40,949 bases of DNA. Origin: Chitinophagales bacterium (GTDB lineage Bacteria; Bacteroidota; Bacteroidia; Chitinophagales; UBA2359). The translations under genes and the position numbers were made by a program. Location of the stretch: the NCBI GenBank assembly GCA_016787295.1, contig JAEUUX010000185.1, positions 1-40,949 on the forward strand. Reading direction: 5' to 3'. Shown piece after piece: positions 16,277 to 39,900 of this stretch. A model generated the notes under the pieces. That model was given only the letters and a program-made list of their open reading frames with translations, did not search any database and was not told the DNA's origin. Each line of letters starts with the position of its first letter. Within the stretch, counting starts at the first letter, position 1.

Positions 16277-17401
16277 TTACAGACTCAATTGGTACGTATG
16301 TAAAATTTCAGCCCATTCTATTATGTGAAAATCCTTCACTTCGGTTGATTTTTTAGCGTCTTCGATTAAGTTTTTCGTATAAGTTTCGATGAAAAGCGTG
16401 TAATCATCGATGAATCGCAAGTAGTATTTTAGGGTTGTAATAATACCATTGGCAATAATGTCGATACCATTCTGGCTTTTTATTTGCAAAATATATTCAT
16501 TTGTTTCCTTTTCTGTGGCTGTATCGATAAAGCTATTTTTGTAAGTGGTTAAAATATAATAGCGCTTAATAGGGTTATTGCGTATTTTCTTCACAATATC
16601 AAAAATGAGGTATTTGTCTATTGGAATATTATGCTTAATTTCGACACTTTCAAAGGGAGTACCGTCTTGTTCACATATCTCTATATCACCAAAACCATGT
16701 TTATCAGAAGCGGTATGAACTTGTAAAGGCAACAATATTTTGTGTTTATATCGATCCATTATCGGAAGTAGTATTTCATACATGCTGTAAATGGCAATAA
16801 CAGGCAGGCGTGAACTTTGTTTGCTCGCAAAATGTTCTTCCAAAATGTGGATAACAGTAGCAATATTGACAATGCCCGATATTGGTTTTTCTACCTGTTT
16901 GAATATCGCTTCATTTTGCACAGAAAGTTTGATAAGTTGTGAAAAAAGGTAGTAAAGACAATGTTCAGGCTTGATTTCATTTGCTTCTATTTGTTCAAAA
17001 ATATTCAAAAAAGCATTTTTCAGTTTGACATCTCTAATTTTCAGATTATTGCCTTCCTCTTTTGACCATTTTATGCGTTCTCGTGTGGCTAAAGTCAAAA
17101 AAGCACTTTCTTCATTGGCATATCTGGGAAATTTTTCTTTAAAAAAAGGAACTGTAAACCGAGAATCCAATACCTTTGCCGAATATCCCCCCTCGAAATC
17201 TGTACGATGCAGACGAACATCTTGTTGCGGGTATATGATTTTTTTTACCAAACTTGTTGTTAATGCCGAAACAAGCGACTTATTATTATCGATTTTAGCA
17301 ATTAACACATCTACGTTTTCGATAATTTGAGCATCAATGGTGCTATTATCTATTGTTTGTGCTATGCAATAGGCATTTTCTAAAACTTTTTTTTCGTTCA
17401 T
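16277..17401 (-). CDS. Probable type II restriction endonuclease, PD-(D/E)XK-like
   Basis: This 374-residue protein has no signal peptide and is Lys/Ile/Asn-rich, more AT-biased than its neighbours, which suggests transfer. A PD-(D/E)XK-type site is visible as GFGDIEI (Asp239) and SVEIKH (Glu254, Lys256). Upstream, GGYSAKVLDSRFTVPFFKE (about 71-89) resembles a conserved stretch of some type II restriction enzymes, possibly of the SacI type; the exact family is uncertain. Its ATG overlaps (ATGA) the stop codon of a methyltransferase C-terminal fragment at 17398-17514, the coupling expected in an R-M operon. The methyltransferase body is absent. Recognition site and activity are unknown. Confidence 0.65.
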   Translation of the reverse strand: MNEKKVLENAYCIAQTIDNSTIDAQIIENVDVLIAKIDNNKSLVSALTTSLVKKIIYPQQDVRLHRTDFEGGYSAKVLDSRFTVPFFKEKFPRYANEESAFLTLATRERIKWSKEEGNNLKIRDVKLKNAFLNIFEQIEANEIKPEHCLYYLFSQLIKLSVQNEAIFKQVEKPISGIVNIATVIHILEEHFASKQSSRLPVIAIYSMYEILLPIMDRYKHKILLPLQVHTASDKHGFGDIEICEQDGTPFESVEIKHNIPIDKYLIFDIVKKIRNNPIKRYYILTTYKNSFIDTATEKETNEYILQIKSQNGIDIIANGIITTLKYYLRFIDDYTLFIETYTKNLIEDAKKSTEVKDFHIIEWAEILHTYQLSL

Positions 17402-17514
17402 ACAAATAGTTCTTGTATAATAGGATTTTGCTCAAGCCATTGCTCAATAAGTTGCACATAATCGGGATTGATTTCTATCCCCAAATACCACCAAAATATA
17501 TGGTTTAGAAGTTT
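17398..17514 (-). pseudogene. C-terminal remnant of a DNA methyltransferase
   Basis: The frame ending at 17398-17400 reads WWYLGIEINPDYVQLIEQW then ends QELFV. The string (Y/F)xGIEINPxYV followed by an amphipathic helix is the C-terminal signature of N4/N6-type DNA methyltransferases (the SAM-binding acidic strand). Homology starts at about 17490; an in-frame TAA lies at 17515-17517. There is no FxGxG or catalytic motif upstream, where the unrelated glycosyltransferase gene ends at 17551. The gene has therefore lost all but its last ~30 codons. Confidence 0.75.
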
Positions 17515-17550
17515 TTATTGTTGATTGGTGGACTTGTGAATTTACAAATT

Positions 17551-18483
17551 TTATACCCTATCCGAAATTTGATAATCATTCCGATTAGCGGCGTTGCGGG
17601 AGATAAGCTCGGCTACAAAACCTGCCAGAAACATTTGCGAACCAATAATCATGCACAACAAACCCAGAAAAAACATCGGACGTTCGGTCATGCGATATTG
17701 CTCAAACACGATTTTGGCGATGCTCAAATAAGTGGCTATCACAAAACCAATAGCAAACAAAACGGTTCCCCACGTACCAAAAAAGTGCATCGGTTTTTTG
17801 CCAAATCTACCAATAAACACAATGGTCATCAGGTCTAAAAAACCGTTGATAAAGCGGTTCAAACCAAATTTTGTTGTACCATATTTGCGGGCTTGGTGCT
17901 GTACGGTTTTTTCGCCAATTTTAGCAAAGCCTTCCCATTTGGCAATCACGGGGATATAGCGGTGCATTTCGCCATACACTTCGATGTTGTGTACCACCTC
18001 CGCTCGATAGGCTTTCAGTCCGCAGTTCATGTCGTTCAGATGAATGCCTGTCATGTAGCGCGTGGCGGCATTATAGATTTTGGTCGGAATGGTTTTGGAG
18101 ATAGGGTCATAGCGTTTCTTTTTCCAGCCCGACACAATGTCATAACCACCATTTTGTATCATGTTAAACAGTTCGGGAATTTCGTCGGGGCTGTCCTGCA
18201 AATCAGCATCCATCGTAATGACAACTTCGCCTTGAGAGGCATGAAAACCCTCGTTCAAGGCAGCCGACTTGCCATAGTTGCGCCGAAATTTTATGGCGCG
18301 AACATTCGAATACTGCTTTGCCAATTGCTGAATGACCGCCCACGACGCATCGGTCGAGCCATCGTCGACAAACAGAATTTCGCAAGACAATTTTTCTTTT
18401 TCCACCACCCGCTGTATCCATGCGGTAAGTTCGGGTAAAGATTCGGCTTCATTCAACAAAGGAATGATAATTGACAATTGCAT
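17551..18483 (-). CDS. GT2 family glycosyltransferase (polyprenyl-phosphate sugar transferase type)
   Basis: This 310-residue GT-A enzyme shows LSIIIPLLNEAESLPEL at the N-terminus and FVDDGSTDAS at 38-47. The metal-binding DADLQDSPDEIPEL starts at 92, then GWKKKRYDP, GIHLNDMNCGLKAYRAEV and VQHQARKYGTTKFG. Two C-terminal hydrophobic segments (about 235-300) anchor it in the inner membrane. The layout matches DPM1/ArnC/GtrB-like enzymes that transfer a sugar from a nucleotide donor to a polyprenyl phosphate. The sugar cannot be predicted. The start is the ATG at 18483 so that LSIIIPLLNE sits at the N-terminus. Confidence 0.88.
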   Translation of the reverse strand: MQLSIIIPLLNEAESLPELTAWIQRVVEKEKLSCEILFVDDGSTDASWAVIQQLAKQYSNVRAIKFRRNYGKSAALNEGFHASQGEVVITMDADLQDSPDEIPELFNMIQNGGYDIVSGWKKKRYDPISKTIPTKIYNAATRYMTGIHLNDMNCGLKAYRAEVVHNIEVYGEMHRYIPVIAKWEGFAKIGEKTVQHQARKYGTTKFGLNRFINGFLDLMTIVFIGRFGKKPMHFFGTWGTVLFAIGFVIATYLSIAKIVFEQYRMTERPMFFLGLLCMIIGSQMFLAGFVAELISRNAANRNDYQISDRV

Positions 18484-30928: not shown

Positions 30929-32809
30929 CTATCCAAATGTTTCGCCTATGCCTTTCAAATGTTCAACCAAACTATTATTACTGGTATATTCTTGTGTCAT
31001 AACCAGCAACTCAGCTTCTGCTTTCACTAAATTGCGGTCGTTAGCAGGCAAAATTTCTTTGAATATTGCTATTGCTTTTTGCAGATAAAAAACAGCCTGT
31101 GGAATATCCTTAGATTCTTTGTTGTAAGAGGCTAAATTATTGTAACACATGCCCAATATAAAGTATCGTGGTTCTAAAGACTTTTCTTCAATATCAATAG
31201 CTTTTTGCAGGAGGGCTTTAGCTTGTTTGTATGCCCCCGCGTCTTGCATCACGGTGGATAAATTGCCATAACTAAGCACCAACTGAGGGTGTTTAGTACC
31301 TAAGTTTTTTTCTAAAATATCAATGGCTACTTGCATATGGGTTTGGGCGGCTTCCAATTTGCCCATACTGCGTAGTACTATACCTAAATTGACATAACTT
31401 TGTGACAATTCCATGTAATTACCTCCTCCCCTTTTTTCTTCAAGGGCAATTACGCGCTCCAAAATACTTTTAGCTTCTTGGTTTTCATTTAAACCATGCA
31501 ATGTCATGGCTAAATTGATATAGATATTAGCCGAATTGGGATGTTCTATCCCAAAATGTTTTTCTTGGATAGCCACTGCTTTTTGCAATAGTATTTTAGA
31601 CTGTTTATAGTCGAGTATATCATGTAGGGCTATTGCCAAACGGGTATAATGGGCGGGTAAAGATGGGTGTTTGTTACCCAACTGTTTCTCTTTGAGGGTC
31701 ACCACTTTTTGCAGCATGGCTATAGCTTGTTTACTGTCGCCTAATTCTTGGAATACTACCGCTAAATTGCTATAGTTTTCGGAGAATATAGCGTACTGGC
31801 TACCCAACTGTTTTTCTTGGATAGCCACCGTTTTTTGCAACAAGGCTTTAGTCTCCAATAGTTTCCCCATCTCGCGCAGGATTATTGCTAAACCCGAATA
31901 TGCTAAAGCTGTTGAAAGGTGGTTGCTGCCATAATGTTTTTCATTGATAGCAACCGCTTTTTGCAATAACTCACTGGCAGATTTATAGTTACATAAATCG
32001 CGCAACACGGAGCCTAAGCGCGCATAGTTTCCTGCCAAGATTGGGTCTTCATTGTCATAATGTTTTTCGTTGATAGCAATAGCTTTTTGCAATAAATCTC
32101 GGGCGGCTTCAGGTTCGTTAATGCGTTGCAAAACTAAGGCATAATCTGCATAATTTTCTGCCAAAGTAGGGTGTTCTATGCCCAAATTTTGTTCATTAAT
32201 GGCAATAACTTTTTCATAAAACGCTTTAGACGTTTCATATTCCTGCAATTCGAGGGATACAGCCGCTAAATTGGTATAATTTTCTATCAAGATAGGGTCG
32301 TCGCTGCCCAAATGTTGTTCATCAATAAGAATAGCTTGTTCAAAAAGCTCTTTGGCTTCTTTATATTCGCGCAATTCTAGCAATACCAAACCCAAATGCG
32401 TATAATTTTCTGCCAAGATGGGGTCGTTGCTATTCAAATGTTGTTGATTGATGATGATAGCCTTCCGAAAAGCTTGTTTAGCATGTTTATTATCGCCCAA
32501 ATTTTGCAAGGTTAAACCCAAATCGGTATAATTTTCGGCTAAAGCAGGGTGTGCTTTACCCAAGTGTTTTTCTTGGATAGCTATTGCTTTTTGCAAAAAG
32601 TTCCTTGCTTCGGTATATGTTTCCAAATCGTTTAGCACAGCAGCTAAATGGGCATAATTTTGAGCCAATGTGAGATGGTTTTTGCCCAACTGCCGTTCGT
32701 TGATAGCAATTGCTTTTTCAAAATGGGCTTTAGCTGCTTTGTAGTCAGTTGCTTCTTGTGCCGCTCTGCCCAAATCGGCGTAATGTTCTGCCGAATGAAG
32801 GTCTTCCAT
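30929..32809 (-). CDS. TPR-only protein C (kinesin-light-chain-like repeats)
   Basis: This 626-residue protein is almost entirely about 14 TPRs of 42 residues, such as YKAAKAHFEKAIAINERQLG and LAENYTDLGLTLQNLGDNKH. The consensus (A-x-E-x-L-x-KAIAI-x-E-K-H-x-G-x-x-HP) is that of TPR_12 proteins. It has no signal peptide, NTPase or effector domain. The start MEDLHSAEHYADLG matches the starts of the two paralogues upstream (MEDFHSAEDY, MEDFISAEDY), so ATG 32809 is used; the 49 codons before it are intergenic sequence also found upstream of paralogue B. It is the most diverged and longest of the three. The role is unknown; context suggests a sensor or scaffold. Confidence 0.85.
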   Translation of the reverse strand: MEDLHSAEHYADLGRAAQEATDYKAAKAHFEKAIAINERQLGKNHLTLAQNYAHLAAVLNDLETYTEARNFLQKAIAIQEKHLGKAHPALAENYTDLGLTLQNLGDNKHAKQAFRKAIIINQQHLNSNDPILAENYTHLGLVLLELREYKEAKELFEQAILIDEQHLGSDDPILIENYTNLAAVSLELQEYETSKAFYEKVIAINEQNLGIEHPTLAENYADYALVLQRINEPEAARDLLQKAIAINEKHYDNEDPILAGNYARLGSVLRDLCNYKSASELLQKAVAINEKHYGSNHLSTALAYSGLAIILREMGKLLETKALLQKTVAIQEKQLGSQYAIFSENYSNLAVVFQELGDSKQAIAMLQKVVTLKEKQLGNKHPSLPAHYTRLAIALHDILDYKQSKILLQKAVAIQEKHFGIEHPNSANIYINLAMTLHGLNENQEAKSILERVIALEEKRGGGNYMELSQSYVNLGIVLRSMGKLEAAQTHMQVAIDILEKNLGTKHPQLVLSYGNLSTVMQDAGAYKQAKALLQKAIDIEEKSLEPRYFILGMCYNNLASYNKESKDIPQAVFYLQKAIAIFKEILPANDRNLVKAEAELLVMTQEYTSNNSLVEHLKGIGETFG

Positions 32810-32976
32810 GTTTAAATACTGTTGATGAACGGGAATGGTTGCGGGCTGATAGCTGGTTTTGGGGTGAAGTTGGGAGTTGTTGTGCAATAATGGGCTAAAT
32901 AGTGTGCTATTATAGCGGTTTTGTTGGGTTGGTGGCTTTGGGGGTTTGAGGAGCAAGGAGGGAGTGTAGTGCTTTG
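32810..32976. repeat. Duplicated intergenic segment, copy 1
   Basis: This stretch between TPR genes C and B matches 34238-34404, sharing TTGATGAACGGGAAT, GCAATAATGGGCTAAATAGT, GCTATTATAGCGGTTTTGTT and TTTGGGGGTTTGAGGA. It shows that whole gene-plus-spacer units were duplicated. Confidence 0.85.
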
Positions 32977-32977
32977 G

Positions 32978-34237
32978 CTATTTCTTTGAACGGGATAGGA
33001 ACGAAACTTTTTGCAAATACGCCTTAGCTTCGTCGGATTTGCCCATTGATTCTAGTACTTCGGCTAATACGGTATAGATTCCGGTCAAAGCTTCGTTATC
33101 TTTTTCAAAATCTGCTTCTTTAATAGCTGCGGCTTTCATCAAAAAGCTGTAGGCTTCGTCGTGTTTGTCCGACACCTCTAATAGGCTAGCCAATTTAAAA
33201 TAAGAGACAGCCAAATCAGACTCGTCATCGTCGGAATGTTCTTCTTCTATGGCAATGGCTTTTCGCAAAAAGACTTGGGCTTGGTCATAGTTAGTCAAGT
33301 CGATGAATACAGCGGCTAAATTGCCATAAGAGGTAGCCAAAGTAGGGTGGTCGGTGCCAAAATGCGCTTCTTCTATGGCAATGGTTCGGAGTAATAGGCT
33401 TTTCGCTTTGTCAAGTTCGCCTAAGTTTTGCAATATGGTGGCTAAATTACTATAGTTAGTAGCCAAATCTGGGTGGTCGAGACCCAAACTTTCCTCTTCT
33501 ATGGCAATAACTCTTTGCAAAATGTCGCGGGCTTCCTTGTCTTCGCCTAAGTCACCTAATATAGTAGCCAAATTAGCATAGTTGTTAAGGACAGTAGGGT
33601 GATCGTCTTCAAAATACGCTTCATTGATGGCAATGGCTTTTTCGATGAGGGTTTTGGCTTGTTTATGGTTGCCTATATCGGATAGCACCATAGCCAAATT
33701 TTCATAGTTGGTAGCCACTTTAGGGTCGTCGGTGCCAAAATGTTTTTCATTGATGGCGATGGCTTTCTTCAAGAGGCTTTGGGCTTTTTTATAGTCCCCC
33801 AAATTTTGTAATACAAGTGCTAAACTGTTATAACTTGTAGCTAAATTGGGATAGTCTTTGCCAAAATGTTTTTCTTCTATGGCAATAGTGGTCTCCAAGA
33901 GGCGCTTGGCTTCGTCATAATCGCCCAAATCATGTAAGGCTAAGGCTAAATTGCCATACAAATCGGCAAAAGTGGGGTGTCCTTTAGAAAAATGCTTTCC
34001 ATTGATGGCAATAGCGCGCTCCAAAAGGCTTTGGGCTTCTTCGGCATCACCCAAACCCAGCAAGGCTGTGGCTAAATTGGAGTAGTCAATTGGCAAAAGG
34101 CTGCTATCTTTGCCAAGCTCTTGTATATTCATAGCAAGGGCTTGCTCAAAATAGGTCTTGGCGGCTTCATAGTCACCCTCTTCTTGTGCTTCGATACCTA
34201 ATTCGGTATAATCTTCTGCTGAATGAAAGTCTTCCAT
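32978..34237 (-). CDS. TPR-only protein B
   Basis: This 419-residue protein consists of about nine 42-residue TPRs (KTYFEQALAMNIQELGKDSS; AKSLLLRTIAIEEAHFGTDH; NLATILQNLGELDKA). It is the same length as paralogue A and colinear with it throughout. The start MEDFHSAEDYTELG is at ATG 34237. It is acidic overall, cytoplasmic by lack of a signal, and without catalytic domains. Its neighbours suggest a TPR partner in the NLR/TIR module, possibly a decoy, sensor or scaffold; this is inference. Confidence 0.85.
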   Translation of the reverse strand: MEDFHSAEDYTELGIEAQEEGDYEAAKTYFEQALAMNIQELGKDSSLLPIDYSNLATALLGLGDAEEAQSLLERAIAINGKHFSKGHPTFADLYGNLALALHDLGDYDEAKRLLETTIAIEEKHFGKDYPNLATSYNSLALVLQNLGDYKKAQSLLKKAIAINEKHFGTDDPKVATNYENLAMVLSDIGNHKQAKTLIEKAIAINEAYFEDDHPTVLNNYANLATILGDLGEDKEARDILQRVIAIEEESLGLDHPDLATNYSNLATILQNLGELDKAKSLLLRTIAIEEAHFGTDHPTLATSYGNLAAVFIDLTNYDQAQVFLRKAIAIEEEHSDDDESDLAVSYFKLASLLEVSDKHDEAYSFLMKAAAIKEADFEKDNEALTGIYTVLAEVLESMGKSDEAKAYLQKVSFLSRSKK

Positions 34238-34404
34238 GTTTAAAAATTATTGATGAACGGGAATTAGTGGGAGTTGGGGGGTGTTTTTGGAGCGGAGTTG
34301 GGGCTTGTTGTGCAATAATGGGCTAAATAGTGTGCTATTATAGCGGTTTTGTTGGGTTGATGGCTTTGGGGGTTTGAGGAACAAGGAGGGTGCATGGTGC
34401 TTTG
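34238..34404. repeat. Duplicated intergenic segment, copy 2
   Basis: It matches 32810-32976. Its right half (GCTATTATAGCGGTTTTGTT onward) is also recognisable, more diverged, downstream of the NLR gene at about 36771-36860, so the 3' flanks of TPR gene A and the NLR share ancestry. Confidence 0.85.
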
Positions 34405-34405
34405 C

Positions 34406-35665
34406 TTATCTCTTTCGGCGAACGAGTGCGTTAGCTTTTTGCAAATAGGCTTTAGCGTCGAGGTTTTTGCCCAATATCTTTGACACGTGGATTAGTTCGG
34501 TATAAATGCCTAGCAAAATATCGATGGTTGTGTTGGGGTCGCGTTCGTTAATGCTTGCTGTTTTTAGCAAAAAGGTACGCGCTTCGTTGAATTTACCCAT
34601 TTTTTTTAACACCAGCCCTATATTAAAATAATAGACAGCCAAGTCAGTCTGGTAGGTTTTCGAATGCGCCTCTCCTATGGCAATGGCTTTTCGCAAATAG
34701 GCTTGGGCTTGTTCATAGTTTTTCAAATCGATGAACACAGTGGATAAATTGGAATAAGAGGCAGCCAAAGTGGGGTGAGTGGCACCTAAATGTGCTTCTT
34801 CTATGGCGATGGCTTTGAGCAAAAGGTCTTTGGCTTTCTCAAATTCGCCTAAGTTTTTTAATACGGTGGCTAAATTATAATAGGTGGTAGCTAATTCGAA
34901 GTGACCGGTATTTAAACTTGCCTCTTCTATGGCAATAATTCTTTCCAAAATGTCTCGGGCTTCTTTGTCTTTGCCCAAATCGCCTAATATGGTCGCCAAA
35001 TTGGCATAGTTGTTAAGCAGTCTGGGGTGACCTTGCTCAAAATGTTTTTCGTTGATGGCAATGGCTTTGACCATAAAGATTTGGGCTTGTTTATAATTGC
35101 CTAATTCGCATAGCACCATTGCCATACTATCATAATTAATAGCTATTTGAGGGTCGTTGGGGTCAAGGTGTTTTTCATTGATAACGATGGCTTTTTTCAG
35201 CAGGCTTTGGGCTTTTTTACAGTTGCCCAACTGTTGTAATACTGTTGCTAAGGCATGATAACTTAGCCCCAAATTGGGGTAGTCTTTGCCAAAATGTTTT
35301 TCTTCTATAGCAATAGTGGCTTCCAAAAGGCTTTGAGCTTCGGCATATTTGCCCAATCTTTCCAACACTAAGGCTAATTTATTATACAAATCGGCAAAAG
35401 TGGGGTGTCCTTCGGGAAAATGCTTTTTGTTGAGGGCAATAGCATCTTCCAAAAGGTTTTGGGCTTCGACAGTATCGCCCAATTTATATAAAGCGATGGC
35501 TAAATTAGCATAGTTAATGGGCAAAAGCGTGCTATCTTCGCCAAACTCTTGTATATTGATAGTAATAGCCCGTTCAAAATGGGCTTTAGCTGCTTCATAG
35601 TCAGCCGCTTCTTGTGCCGCTATACCTAATTTGGCATAATCTTCGGCTGAAATAAAATCTTCCAT
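34406..35665 (-). CDS. TPR-only protein A
   Basis: This 419-residue paralogue of protein B has the same nine-repeat layout (AKAHFERAITINIQEFGEDS; DLLLKAIAIEEAHLGATHPT; NLSTVFIDLKNYEQAQAYL). ATG 35665 (MEDFISAEDYAKLG) is the start by alignment with B and C; an upstream TTG adds only three residues. It ends in a basic tail (LQKANALVRRKR), as does B. The nearest gene upstream is the NLR, 1.2 kb away. No known function. Confidence 0.85.
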   Translation of the reverse strand: MEDFISAEDYAKLGIAAQEAADYEAAKAHFERAITINIQEFGEDSTLLPINYANLAIALYKLGDTVEAQNLLEDAIALNKKHFPEGHPTFADLYNKLALVLERLGKYAEAQSLLEATIAIEEKHFGKDYPNLGLSYHALATVLQQLGNCKKAQSLLKKAIVINEKHLDPNDPQIAINYDSMAMVLCELGNYKQAQIFMVKAIAINEKHFEQGHPRLLNNYANLATILGDLGKDKEARDILERIIAIEEASLNTGHFELATTYYNLATVLKNLGEFEKAKDLLLKAIAIEEAHLGATHPTLAASYSNLSTVFIDLKNYEQAQAYLRKAIAIGEAHSKTYQTDLAVYYFNIGLVLKKMGKFNEARTFLLKTASINERDPNTTIDILLGIYTELIHVSKILGKNLDAKAYLQKANALVRRKR

Positions 35666-35698
35666 CTTTATCAATTGTTGATGAAGGGGAGTGGTTGG

Positions 35699-35861
35699 GG
35701 GGAGTGGAGTGTTGTTGCTTTGTTGTTTTGCAGTGTGTTTGTCGGAATGTCGGTGCTTGCTCCCTAAAGTAGGGTTGAAACTTTGTGGAATGGTGGTATT
35801 TAATGGATAATTGCCCTCAACCTTTCGGAGGTTTAGAACCCCCGAAAGGTTTTTTCACAAT
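35699..35861. repeat. 163-bp direct repeat, copy 1
   Basis: It begins GGGGAGTGGAGTGTTGTTGC, contains a CCTTTCGG hairpin near its right end, and ends TTTTTTCACAAT. It matches 36412-36574 without gaps and with only a handful of substitutions. Confidence 0.9.
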
Positions 35862-36318
35862 ATTGGGTCGAATCATACCACCCCATCGGGGTTTTTGCTA
35901 TTTGTTGGGTTGCCTCGTGCTATAAACCTATCACCCTTTCAGGGTTGTTTTTGCAGATTAACGGTGGGAAGGTGATGTAGGTAACAACGGTACTTGTACC
36001 GTTGAAAAGTTGATAATTATGCGACAATATGCAGGTGCAAATTAGCGGGGGGAGTGTGCTGTTATTGATATGTGGGGGTACAGATTGCCTTTGGGTTACT
36101 GTTGTCCAACGGTACAAGTACCGTTGCTACCTGTGGCTGATGCCTGTCATTAATATTCAGGTGCAGATTGATGATAAGGTTATGCCAATTACCCTCAAGC
36201 TTTCGGAGTCTTGAAACATCTGAAAGGTTTTAACCAAAATAAAACCCCGATGGGGTGAAATGATTATAGCAAATAGATAATAGCCCCAAACACGAACCCC
36301 GACGGGGTGATATTATAC

Positions 36319-36415
36319 CAATGCTTGGTGAAATAATGCTATGTCGTCATGATTTTTGCTACTTGGTTGGCTACATTTCTATAGCATCTTGTCATTTTTT
36401 CAGGCTTGTTTGGGG
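36319..36415. repeat. 97-bp direct repeat, copy 1
   Basis: It shares GTGAAATAATGCTATG, ATGATTTTTGCTA and CATCTTGTCATTTTTTCAGG with 36571-36667, with no gaps. It directly abuts the second 163-bp repeat. Confidence 0.88.
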
Positions 36416-36574
36416 AGTGGAGTGTTGTTGCTTTGTTGTTTTGCAGTGTGTTTGTCGGAATGTCGGTGCTTGTTTCGTAAAGTAGGGTTGAAACTTTGTG
36501 GAATGGTGATATTTAATGGATAATTGCCCTCAACCTTTCGGGGGTTTAGAACCCCCGAAAGGTTTTTTCACAAT
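36412..36574. repeat. 163-bp direct repeat, copy 2
   Basis: Second copy of 35699-35861. Its hairpin is the better-preserved one (CCTTTCGGGGGTTTAGAACC). Confidence 0.9.
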
Positions 36575-36667
36575 GTTTTGTGAAATAATGCTATGCCGTT
36601 ATGATTTTTGCTAATCGGTTAGCTACGTTTCTATGACATCTTGTCATTTTTTCAGGCTTGTTTGGGG
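36571..36667. repeat. 97-bp direct repeat, copy 2
   Basis: Second copy of 36319-36415, starting at the last bases of the second 163-bp repeat. The composite order is therefore A...B-A-B. Confidence 0.88.
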
Positions 36668-36885
36668 GTAGCGGCATTAGCAAGCTTTTTGTCGGTATGT
36701 GTCTTTTGCACGAGGGCAGTCCGCGATACCATTTTTTCATCTTGTTGCCAAGATATGCTAAACCATACCTTATTATAGCTGTTTTGCTGGGTGAATGGTT
36801 CTGGGGCGTTGAATAGTGATGGGAGTGTATGGTGCTATGCTCACTTTTTTATTGATTGGCGAAAGCTATTGTTCTGCAAAAGGAT

Positions 36886-39702
36886 TTAAGACTTGTTGTC
36901 TTTATCCACTTTTTGCAATACTGCGGCTAAATTGTTGCGGAGCGTGACCATATTAGGATGATCATTGCTAAAATGTTTTTTGGCAATATTGATGGCTTTT
37001 TCCAAAAGACTTTTAGCTTCTTCATAGTTACCTAAAGCCTTTAATACTAAAGCTAAATTAGAATAACGGATAGCCAAATTAGGATGTTCTGTCCCAAAAT
37101 GCTTTTCACCAATACTGATGGCTTTTTGCAAAAGGCTTTGAGCTTGTTCATAATTGCCTAAGCCTTGTAATACTAAAGCTAAATTAGCATAACGGGTAGC
37201 CAAAGTAGGGTGTTCTGTCCCAAAATGCTTTTCATCAATGCTGATGGCTTTTAGCAAAAGACTTTTAGCTTGTTCATAATTGCCTAAGCCTTGTAATACT
37301 AAAGCTAAATTAGCATAACGAGTAGCCAAAGTAGGGTGTTCTGTCCCAAAATGCTTTTCATCAATGCTGATGGCTTTGAGCAAAAGGCTTTGAGCTTCTT
37401 CATAGTTACCTAAGGCTTGTAATACTAAGGCTAAATTAGAATAACGAACGGACAAAGTAGGGTGTTCTGTCCCAAAATGCTTTTCATCAATATTGATGGC
37501 TTTTTGCAAAAGGCTTTTAGCTTCGTCATAATTACCTAAGTCTTTTAATACTAAAGCTAAATTAGAATAACGAGTAGCCAAAGTAGGGTGTTCTGTCCCA
37601 AAATGCTTCTCATCAATACTGATGGCTTTTAGCAAAAGACTTTTAGCTTCGTCATAATTACCTAAGTTTTGTAATACTAAGGCTAAATTAGCATAACGAA
37701 TAGCTAAAGTATGGTGTTCCGTCTCAAAATGCTTTTCATCAATACTGATGGCTTTTAGCAAAAGGCTTTTAGCTTCGTCATAATTACCTAAGTTTTGTAA
37801 TACTAAGGCTAAATTAGCATACAGCGTAGCCAAAGTAGGGTGTTCTGTCCCAAAATGCTTTTCATCAATGCTGATGGCTTTTAGCAAAAGACTTTTAGCT
37901 TGTTCATATTTACCTAAGTTTTGTAATACTGTGGCTAAATTAGAATAGTGGGTAGCCAAATTAGGGTGTTCTGTCCCAAAATGCTTCTCATCAATACTGA
38001 TGGCTTTTTGCAAGAAGCTTTGCGCCTTGTCATAGTTACCTAAGTGTTGTAATACTGTAGCTAAGTTGGAATAATAGGCAGCCAAAGTAGGGTGTTCTGT
38101 CCCAAAATGCTTTTCCTCAATACTAATAGCTTTTAACAAAAGACTTTTAGCTTGTTCATAATTACCTAAGTTTTGTAATACTAAGGCTAAATTAGAATAA
38201 TAGGTAGCCAAAGTAGGGTGTTCTGTCCCAAAATGCTTTTCACCAATACTGATGGCTTTTAGCAAAAGGATTTGGGCTTGTGCATATTCGCCTAAGTCTT
38301 TTAATACTAAGGCTAAATTATTCTGCAATACTCCCATCTCTTCCACCTCAAAACTCCCCAACACCTCCACCAAACGCTCTCCATAAGGCACCCAAACAAA
38401 CTTATCTGCGGGATTATCTTTGCTTTGGTCAAGATGGAGACAGGCTGTTACATTTTCAAGCAAAGGCATAGCCAATTCCATTGGTGGGGCTTGCTTTTTG
38501 CGTATAATCTGGGCTACGATGGTGTGCATACGGTAGCTATCGGTCGCGCTGTCTTCACTAATCCAGCCTTTTTCGCGCAATGCTTGCAAGGAAGGTAGAA
38601 GTCGGTGCTGCAAAGGATTACTATGGGTATCTAATAGCAACTGTAGGGTGCTATAGGGAATATTGGCAGCAGGTAAGTAGGTGAATTGGCACAACAAAGA
38701 CAGGGCATCGCCCTCTATACGGCTCAAATCGTAAATACTCTCCAAATAGCCCATCACGCGCTGTATGCGTTGGTTAGAGTTGGGTTGGTGTGCAACCGTA
38801 ATATAGGTAGCAGCATCTGTTGCCAATGCCTCAAAGAGTTGTTGGGCATCAAAACGCATAACTTGGGCTGTTTTTGCCAATATCTCAATGGCAAGGGTGT
38901 GGTATTCAATGCGGGCTAAGAGCTTTTGTCGGTCTTCGGTGCTAATGGCGTTTCGGGTATAATGGCGGTTAAAGAGTTGCAGGGCTTCGTCGGGCGACAG
39001 TTGGTCTAAGGCATATTCGGTATAGCCATAAATACTTTCGCGCGAGCTTATCAATACGTGCCAGTTGGGTGGGCAGGGTATTTGGTGGCGATAGTTCGCA
39101 AGGTCTTCTTGGGCGTTGTCAATGAGGAGCAAGCAGGGACGGTCGGGAATGCGGTGGAGGCGTGCCACTACCATAGTAAACCATTCCTTTGGGTCGGTGT
39201 TTTGTTGGTCTATGCCAAGGGTAACAAACAAACCTTCCGTGCTAATGAAGGCATCGGGCAGGCTTTGTCCATCTCCCTGTTTTACCCACAAGATATTGTG
39301 GTAGTCGTTGAAATAGCTATCTACATACACCTCTAAAAGGGTCGTTTTGCCCATACCGCCAATGGCATTCACCACCACTAAGGCTTGTTCCTGTTCGAGC
39401 ATGGCGCGCACCTGCGCTATATCTCGCTCCCTGCCCACAATGTCTTTGCGGCTTCGGCGCGGAAGTAGGTTGCACAAGCGGCGCGGTAGTTTGATTTCTT
39501 GGACAATCAAGTTGAAAGTAGCCTCGTTGATACTTCCAATGTTGTAAATCTTATCGCCCACCGTAATTTGCAGGTCACTAAACTGTTTGCCTAATTGCTG
39601 CAACGCACTCCAATTATTCGGAATGATTTGTTGCTTACCGTCAATGAAAACGACCAATCGGTCTTGTTCTATGCCATGTATGCGGAGACTATGAGGTAAC
39701 AT
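36886..39702 (-). CDS. NLR-type STAND NTPase: N-terminal KIYNI motif, NB-ARC/NACHT-like domain, TPR array
   Basis: This 938-residue cytoplasmic protein has three parts. The N-terminus (about 1-80) carries KIYNIGSINEATF at 51-63, matching the C-terminus of the adjacent TIR-like protein. The NTPase follows: VGRERDI (89-95), Walker A GGMGKTT (115-121), Walker B LLLIDN (191-196), sensor-like LISSR (217-221) and LDQLSPDEALQLF. Then comes a helical winged-helix-like region. From about residue 455 come about 11 TPRs of 42 residues, nearly identical (KAISIDEKHFGTEHPTLATR). STAND NTPases oligomerise when the repeat sensor binds a trigger and pass the signal through the N-terminus. The start is ATG 39702; a TTG 13 codons upstream is less likely. 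Confidence 0.9.
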   Translation of the reverse strand: MLPHSLRIHGIEQDRLVVFIDGKQQIIPNNWSALQQLGKQFSDLQITVGDKIYNIGSINEATFNLIVQEIKLPRRLCNLLPRRSRKDIVGRERDIAQVRAMLEQEQALVVVNAIGGMGKTTLLEVYVDSYFNDYHNILWVKQGDGQSLPDAFISTEGLFVTLGIDQQNTDPKEWFTMVVARLHRIPDRPCLLLIDNAQEDLANYRHQIPCPPNWHVLISSRESIYGYTEYALDQLSPDEALQLFNRHYTRNAISTEDRQKLLARIEYHTLAIEILAKTAQVMRFDAQQLFEALATDAATYITVAHQPNSNQRIQRVMGYLESIYDLSRIEGDALSLLCQFTYLPAANIPYSTLQLLLDTHSNPLQHRLLPSLQALREKGWISEDSATDSYRMHTIVAQIIRKKQAPPMELAMPLLENVTACLHLDQSKDNPADKFVWVPYGERLVEVLGSFEVEEMGVLQNNLALVLKDLGEYAQAQILLLKAISIGEKHFGTEHPTLATYYSNLALVLQNLGNYEQAKSLLLKAISIEEKHFGTEHPTLAAYYSNLATVLQHLGNYDKAQSFLQKAISIDEKHFGTEHPNLATHYSNLATVLQNLGKYEQAKSLLLKAISIDEKHFGTEHPTLATLYANLALVLQNLGNYDEAKSLLLKAISIDEKHFETEHHTLAIRYANLALVLQNLGNYDEAKSLLLKAISIDEKHFGTEHPTLATRYSNLALVLKDLGNYDEAKSLLQKAINIDEKHFGTEHPTLSVRYSNLALVLQALGNYEEAQSLLLKAISIDEKHFGTEHPTLATRYANLALVLQGLGNYEQAKSLLLKAISIDEKHFGTEHPTLATRYANLALVLQGLGNYEQAQSLLQKAISIGEKHFGTEHPNLAIRYSNLALVLKALGNYEEAKSLLEKAINIAKKHFSNDHPNMVTLRNNLAAVLQKVDKDNKS
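36960..38320. repeat. 126-bp coding tandem repeat (about 11 units) in the NLR gene
   Basis: The TPR array is a DNA-level tandem repeat with a 126-bp period. Conserved strings such as TAGGGTGTTCTGTCCCAAAA and GCTTTTCATCAATACTGATG recur in nearly every unit with few silent differences. The three TPR-only genes downstream have the same protein period but are much more diverged at DNA level. Confidence 0.88.
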
Positions 39703-39900
39703 ACCATTTCGTTTTAGTTGGTAATGATAGAAAAGGGACAAAAAGTGGCTATATAGGACGCATCATCACGCCACAAAACCAATAAACTCTCCGTAATATA
39801 GGGTTTTAACCCTACGATAGAGCAAAAAGTAGCTGTATAGGGCAAATTTGGACTATCCACCAAGCGAATGAACAATAATAAACACCATCAACGCACAACA
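39703..39900. other. 198-bp spacer between TIR-like and NLR genes
   Basis: It contains a short hairpin TAGGGTT-TT-AACCCTA and a loosely repeated motif CAAAAAGT(G/A)GCT(A/G)TATAGG about 85 bp apart. There is no clear consensus promoter, so read-through from the TIR-like gene is possible. Confidence 0.5.

Follow-up and report, generated by a model that had tools for sequence, protein, structure and literature searches.

We identified an intact, predicted Type II restriction endonuclease gene whose cognate methyltransferase appears to have been cut down by deletion to its last 29 codons. Our preferred reading, to which we give a probability of about 55%, is a recently orphaned Type II restriction-modification (R-M) operon in which the deletion also took the promoter and the translational coupling, with the nuclease left silent or almost silent. 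Solitary Type II endonucleases pose a puzzle, namely how a cell can live with a DNA-cutting enzyme once the protecting partner is gone. This locus offers an intact nuclease together with a clear remnant of the methyltransferase, sister systems for comparison and a target prediction that leaves an extrapolated 330 or so sites, so expression, activity and protection are each directly testable.

The endonuclease gene and the methyltransferase relic

The window, i.e., the whole stretch of DNA analysed, is a complete contig (C6, 40,949 bp) of a 5.42 Mb genome that is assembled in 296 contigs and is 98.3% complete. The features of the locus are as follows.

16277-17401, minus strand: predicted Type II restriction endonuclease gene P0001 (374 aa), an intact open reading frame with predicted specificity GDGCHC
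16634-16687, minus strand: catalytic residues D239 (16685-16687), E254 (16640-16642) and K256 (16634-16636), placed by homologue alignments and the structural model
17398-17401, minus strand: ATGA overlap of the relic's stop and the endonuclease start, read from the sequence and the same in most relatives' junctions
17398-17487, minus strand: putative relic, the last 29 codons and stop of the cognate beta-class N4/N6 DNA methyltransferase (YLGIEINPDYVQLIEQWLEQNPIIQELFV, then stop), from the family profile and ten relatives' tails
17488-17550, minus strand: 63 bp, from the relic to the glycosyltransferase stop, that show no similarity to methyltransferases, by a codon walk and the tail alignment
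17551-18483, minus strand: family 2 glycosyltransferase gene (PF00535, E=1e-34), the upstream co-directional neighbour, outside the R-M system and given for context only

Elsewhere in the window, 30929-39741 on the minus strand encodes successive large proteins of 675, 419, 422 and 951 aa that have TPR matches; the 951-aa protein contains at least eleven repeats, and its N-terminal half lacks a clear match.

An earlier reading of this DNA, made from the sequence only, had called the nuclease gene intact and guessed its active site as D239...E254-x-K256, and both calls held. The three residues are invariant in homologue alignments of 8 and of 10 sequences, and in an AlphaFold2 model that is confident over nearly its whole length (pLDDT 90.7, pTM 0.84) they sit in a PD-(D/E)XK-like core, with D239 immediately preceding strand 240-244 and E254 and K256 within strand 249-256. 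With this D...ExK arrangement, and with homologues that are linked to a cognate methyltransferase, P0001 is predicted to be a Type II restriction endonuclease of the PD-(D/E)XK superfamily. Curated-family, NCBIfam, PADLOC and PDB sequence searches gave no match to P0001, a first scan of genome contigs with the single endonuclease protein found nothing, and no relatives were found in viral contigs or phage records. Relatives 40-60% identical to it were found in records labelled Kapaibacterium, Cytophagales, Prevotellaceae, Bacteroidales, Elusimicrobiota, Desulfamplus, Desulfatirhabdium and WOR-3.

At the 73 columns that are invariant among the other family members (each of which, tested likewise, differs at 0-16), P0001 differs at 4 (R to K, T to S, K to E and T to N), so it has no excess of changes and appears to be without sign of decay. 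These four changes, together with solitary endonucleases that resemble active ones yet lack activity (cited in PMC3488263), could suggest an enzyme that substitutions away from the active site have inactivated or greatly weakened, or one that serves another role, so that the missing methyltransferase does no harm. We consider this improbable, as four is a usual number of changes for an intact member, the catalytic residues have been retained and confidence in the model is high over nearly the whole length.

The ATG of P0001 had been described as overlapping the stop of an upstream frame (17398-17514), taken for a methyltransferase C-terminus. The overlap is indeed a four-base ATGA that contains the TGA of the relic. 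The frame encodes KLLNHIFWWYLGIEINPDYVQLIEQWLEQNPIIQELFV, then a stop, and its methyltransferase origin was borne out for 17398-17487 but not for codons 17488-17514 (KLLNHIFWW), which are not methyltransferase-like. When the six-frame window was searched with the cognate methyltransferase profile, the sole match above the inclusion threshold was the relic (15.0 bits, E=8e-4, model positions 312-341 of 342), in line with the claim that nothing else of the methyltransferase remains. Aligned with each of ten relatives' tails, the relic tail scored z 6.9-11.1 against shuffles, and for every one of the ten, 0/1,000 shuffles reached the real score. As similarity ends at 17487, the deletion junction probably lies at or near 17487/17488. 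By this comparison, 29 of about 340 methyltransferase codons would be left, with the start among the lost part, and we infer that the promoter was also within the deleted part. The relic has W at an arginine position (..R[IL]) that is invariant in 10/10 relatives' tails; this change, although of one residue only, would fit relaxed constraint. A reconstruction of the empty site from rsmI synteny failed, as gene order is not conserved.

Intact homologous loci, a check proposed with the sequence-only reading, do exist. In ten relatives of the close group (L046-L054, L056), from several phyla, a homologous beta-class N6_N4 methyltransferase lies directly upstream of the endonuclease, and these M-R pairs are intact or near-intact. 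The methyltransferase of L003/L046 matches PF01555 at E=5e-49, and in most of the relatives the methyltransferase has a tail of this kind that overlaps the endonuclease start by ATGA. Together with the undecayed catalytic residues and the lack of any cognate-family methyltransferase in the genome, these pairs uphold the earlier claim that the methyltransferase was deleted down to its C-terminal tail. The opposite case was seen at L056 (5872-7009, WOR-3 record WFXS01000124.1), where the methyltransferase is intact and the endonuclease is broken: its frame is interrupted after approximately 224 codons, and similarity goes on in another frame.

A misjoined contig, or one from a deletion variant in a population that has the intact M-R operon, could produce the same picture. 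The assembly, in 296 contigs, looks like a metagenome bin, and another methyltransferase gene is apparently split between contig ends C115 and C124. Against this, the 98.3%-complete assembly yielded no further fragment of a cognate-family methyltransferase, the junction is inside a contig with a complete gene on either side, and the R-to-W substitution in the relic points to genuine decay. We therefore rate such an effect as a slim prospect.

SacI-like endonucleases (L002, L003, L009) pair with three unrelated methyltransferase classes, namely m5C (G058, S. epidermidis), beta-class N4/N6 (the close family) and D12 adenine (Nostoc, Calothrix, Aeromonas). On Staphylococcus epidermidis plasmid NZ_CP093209.1 (L007, 1978-4098), a single 2.1-kb gene annotated as a DNA cytosine methyltransferase covers an m5C methyltransferase as well as an endonuclease resembling P0001, and is apparently an M-R fusion of natural origin. 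A 297-aa open reading frame in G223 (L006, 1360-2253) holds only the middle of a SacI-like endonuclease behind an unrelated N-terminal part; it is a decayed or chimeric copy, with no adjoining methyltransferase in the stretch read.

Predicted target and its depletion

To predict the specificity of P0001, 3,121 degenerate palindromic 6-bp patterns with enough expectation in each of seven carrier genomes were ranked by avoidance, with no motif assumed. The seven carriers were the window's own genome (a 776 kb sample) and six further carriers of the close family. GDGCHC ranked first of the 3,121 (worst observed/expected ratio 0.235, geometric mean 0.116), followed by its subset GRGCYC. The D/H boundary is sharp, as GAGCGC, GCGCAC and GCGCCC, which lie just outside GDGCHC, occur at about the expected level. 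From this genome avoidance, P0001 is predicted to recognise GDGCHC, the Bsp1286I/SduI specificity. GAGCTC (the SacI site) was considered as the whole target and rejected, since the testable GDGCHC words are all avoided and GCGCAC, GCGCCC and GAGCGC are not. An avoidance scan over the carriers of one R-M family is a cheap way to predict specificity without an assumed motif.

As an outside control, GAGCAC was compared across whole genomes with its reversed control. In nine carriers the ratio of the two was 0.035-0.38, whereas among 59 relatives that lack the gene its median was 1.79 (Mann-Whitney p=1.4e-8 with the own genome left out and relatedness not corrected for); three genomes that have distant homologues gave 1.3-3.2. 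At a small number of non-carrier loci, the count was 40 observed and 55 expected. Three genomes of the same family as the window's genome (G010, G014 and G002) have low GAGCAC ratios (0.08, 0.30 and 0.31) without this gene, and the endonuclease family profile found no relative of P0001 in them. They may have a different GDGCHC-like system, or have lost one, and part of the site depletion may predate, or be independent of, this operon. Methyltransferases of G004 and G010 that are 33-34% identical to a cognate one were considered as a cause of G010's avoidance and rejected: they adjoin a different nuclease-like gene and are common to one avoiding and one non-avoiding genome.

In the window's own genome, GDGCHC was observed 47 times per 776 kb where 736 were expected (approximately 6%, or a roughly 16-fold depletion), as deep an avoidance as in the intact carriers. 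The whole-genome GAGCAC count, 96, agrees with the 776 kb sample, from which approximately 330 GDGCHC sites are extrapolated genome-wide. Avoided sites indicate that a system has long been resident, or are a trace left by its loss (PMC4687349).

Other palindromes are also avoided in this sample (G000; L080-L119 and the window), with observed/expected counts of 57/2,134 for GGCC, 276/1,671 for GATC, 0/47 for GACGTC, 0/32 for CGTACG and 2/123 for CTGCAG. Such extreme avoidance points to a heavy load of R-M systems. The HindVP prototype site is GRCGYC, and the genome has a HindVP-family endonuclease; GACGTC and GACGCC are both absent from the 776 kb sample, which serves as a calibration.

Possible silence or protection of the orphaned nuclease

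No full-length relative was found when the window's own genome (98.3% complete) was searched with two cognate methyltransferases, and over 776 kb around other methyltransferases the family profile matched generic motif regions only, with the target-recognition region unmatched. The genome's R-M systems include endonucleases of the HindVP, Bpu10I, BsaWI, CfrBI and BanI/DpnII-like families. At least 15 PF01555 matches exceeded the cut-off, several of them without an evident adjoining endonuclease, including the best match to the cognate profile, an SPPY-type methyltransferase on contig C150. Hence the search for a second methyltransferase, also proposed earlier, found no cognate-family member, and left room for an unrelated protecting enzyme. 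The peptide YPRLYIAKQLLKDDG occurs at the ends of both contig C115 (L104, from 94) and contig C124 (L109, 1-579), and a single PF01555 methyltransferase gene seems to have been divided there by the assembly.

These enzymes bear on the possibility that the system is separated, with an active endonuclease and an unrelated methyltransferase elsewhere, of the same or broader specificity, that protects GDGCHC and made the linked one dispensable. PMC3488263 documents separated systems and gives 19 predictions for Type II, another bacterium has an orphan, multi-specific m5C methyltransferase able to block Bsp1286I (PMC3459991), and the site depletion is still as deep as in intact carriers. However, no methyltransferase found shares the cognate family's target-recognition region, and both m5C enzymes found adjoin other endonucleases (of the Bpu10I and HindVP families). 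We consider a separated system unlikely. It is unlikely, too, that the endonuclease is expressed and active without its methyltransferase, as a split or methyltransferase-independent defence enzyme; if so, it would be tolerated through the purge of GDGCHC, with the remaining sites covered by an unrelated methyltransferase or repaired.

For the orphaned operon that we prefer, the ancestral state would be a two-gene Type II operon, M then R, with a stop/start overlap and predicted specificity GDGCHC. Comparison with the relatives indicates that a deletion removed the methyltransferase upstream of its last 29 codons, and the same deletion would have taken the operon promoter and the upstream translation feeding the endonuclease start; joint loss of regulatory elements with the upstream methyltransferase has been proposed for such cases (PMC3488263). 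The coding-intact endonuclease gene would then most likely be unexpressed, or expressed below a harmful level. As decay is visible in neither the nuclease nor the site depletion, the loss was probably recent. The strong depletion would fit long earlier residence of a GDGCHC system, and would lower, not remove, the cost of leaky expression. The sequence-only reading held that an active enzyme of this kind should be lethal, which the depletion softens; since hundreds of sites would still be open to an active enzyme in unprotected DNA, a silent or near-silent gene after a recent deletion is the simplest reading. Counting against silence, the glycosyltransferase gene is co-directional and no intrinsic terminator was found in 17488-17550, so its transcript could run on into the relic and the endonuclease gene. 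Two weak sigma-70-like matches in the same 63 bp are not better than expected from shuffles. Sequence alone does not tell apart a gene that is silent, inactive, protected in trans or recently orphaned.

Comparison with known systems

EcoT38I recognises GRGCYC (REBASE), a subset of the GDGCHC predicted for P0001, and it is the best structural match of the P0001 model (PDB 7edb, 7e8r; Z 24.2, rmsd 3.7 over 332 residues, almost the entire protein; Foldseek E=4e-11), with the next unrelated row at Z 8.7. P0001 thus appears to have an EcoT38I-like fold, while identity is just 14-16%, there is no sequence-profile match and the predicted specificity of P0001 is broader. The SacI site, GAGCTC, is one GDGCHC word, and the target of P0001 appears wider. 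Distant plasmid relatives of P0001 are annotated as SacI family (PF09566, RE_SacI), which is matched by 4/10 aligned family members, weakly (best E=1.3e-4); P0001 itself gave no match to PF09566 and is below its gathering score. GDGCHC, as predicted for P0001 from genome avoidance alone, is the recognition sequence of Bsp1286I and SduI.

A close parallel is the class of solitary endonucleases described by Ershova et al. (2012, PMC3488263), who reported 74 full-length solitary enzymes with corrupted methyltransferase genes nearby, 11 of them Type II. They proposed regulatory elements lost with the upstream methyltransferase, inactivity, genomes without sites (PacI) and an unrecognised protecting methyltransferase; deletion of the PaeR7I methyltransferase did not kill the cell (cited in PMC3488263). 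Our locus shares with their class ii a full-length endonuclease, an adjoining broken methyltransferase (here a remnant within 4 kb), intact orthologous systems elsewhere and no cognate-family methyltransferase elsewhere in the 98.3%-complete genome. It is a clean new member of a class that is rare and was itself catalogued in 2012. In contrast to their cases, the methyltransferase here is cut to 29 codons rather than frameshifted, and the target was predicted from avoidance and counted in the genome.
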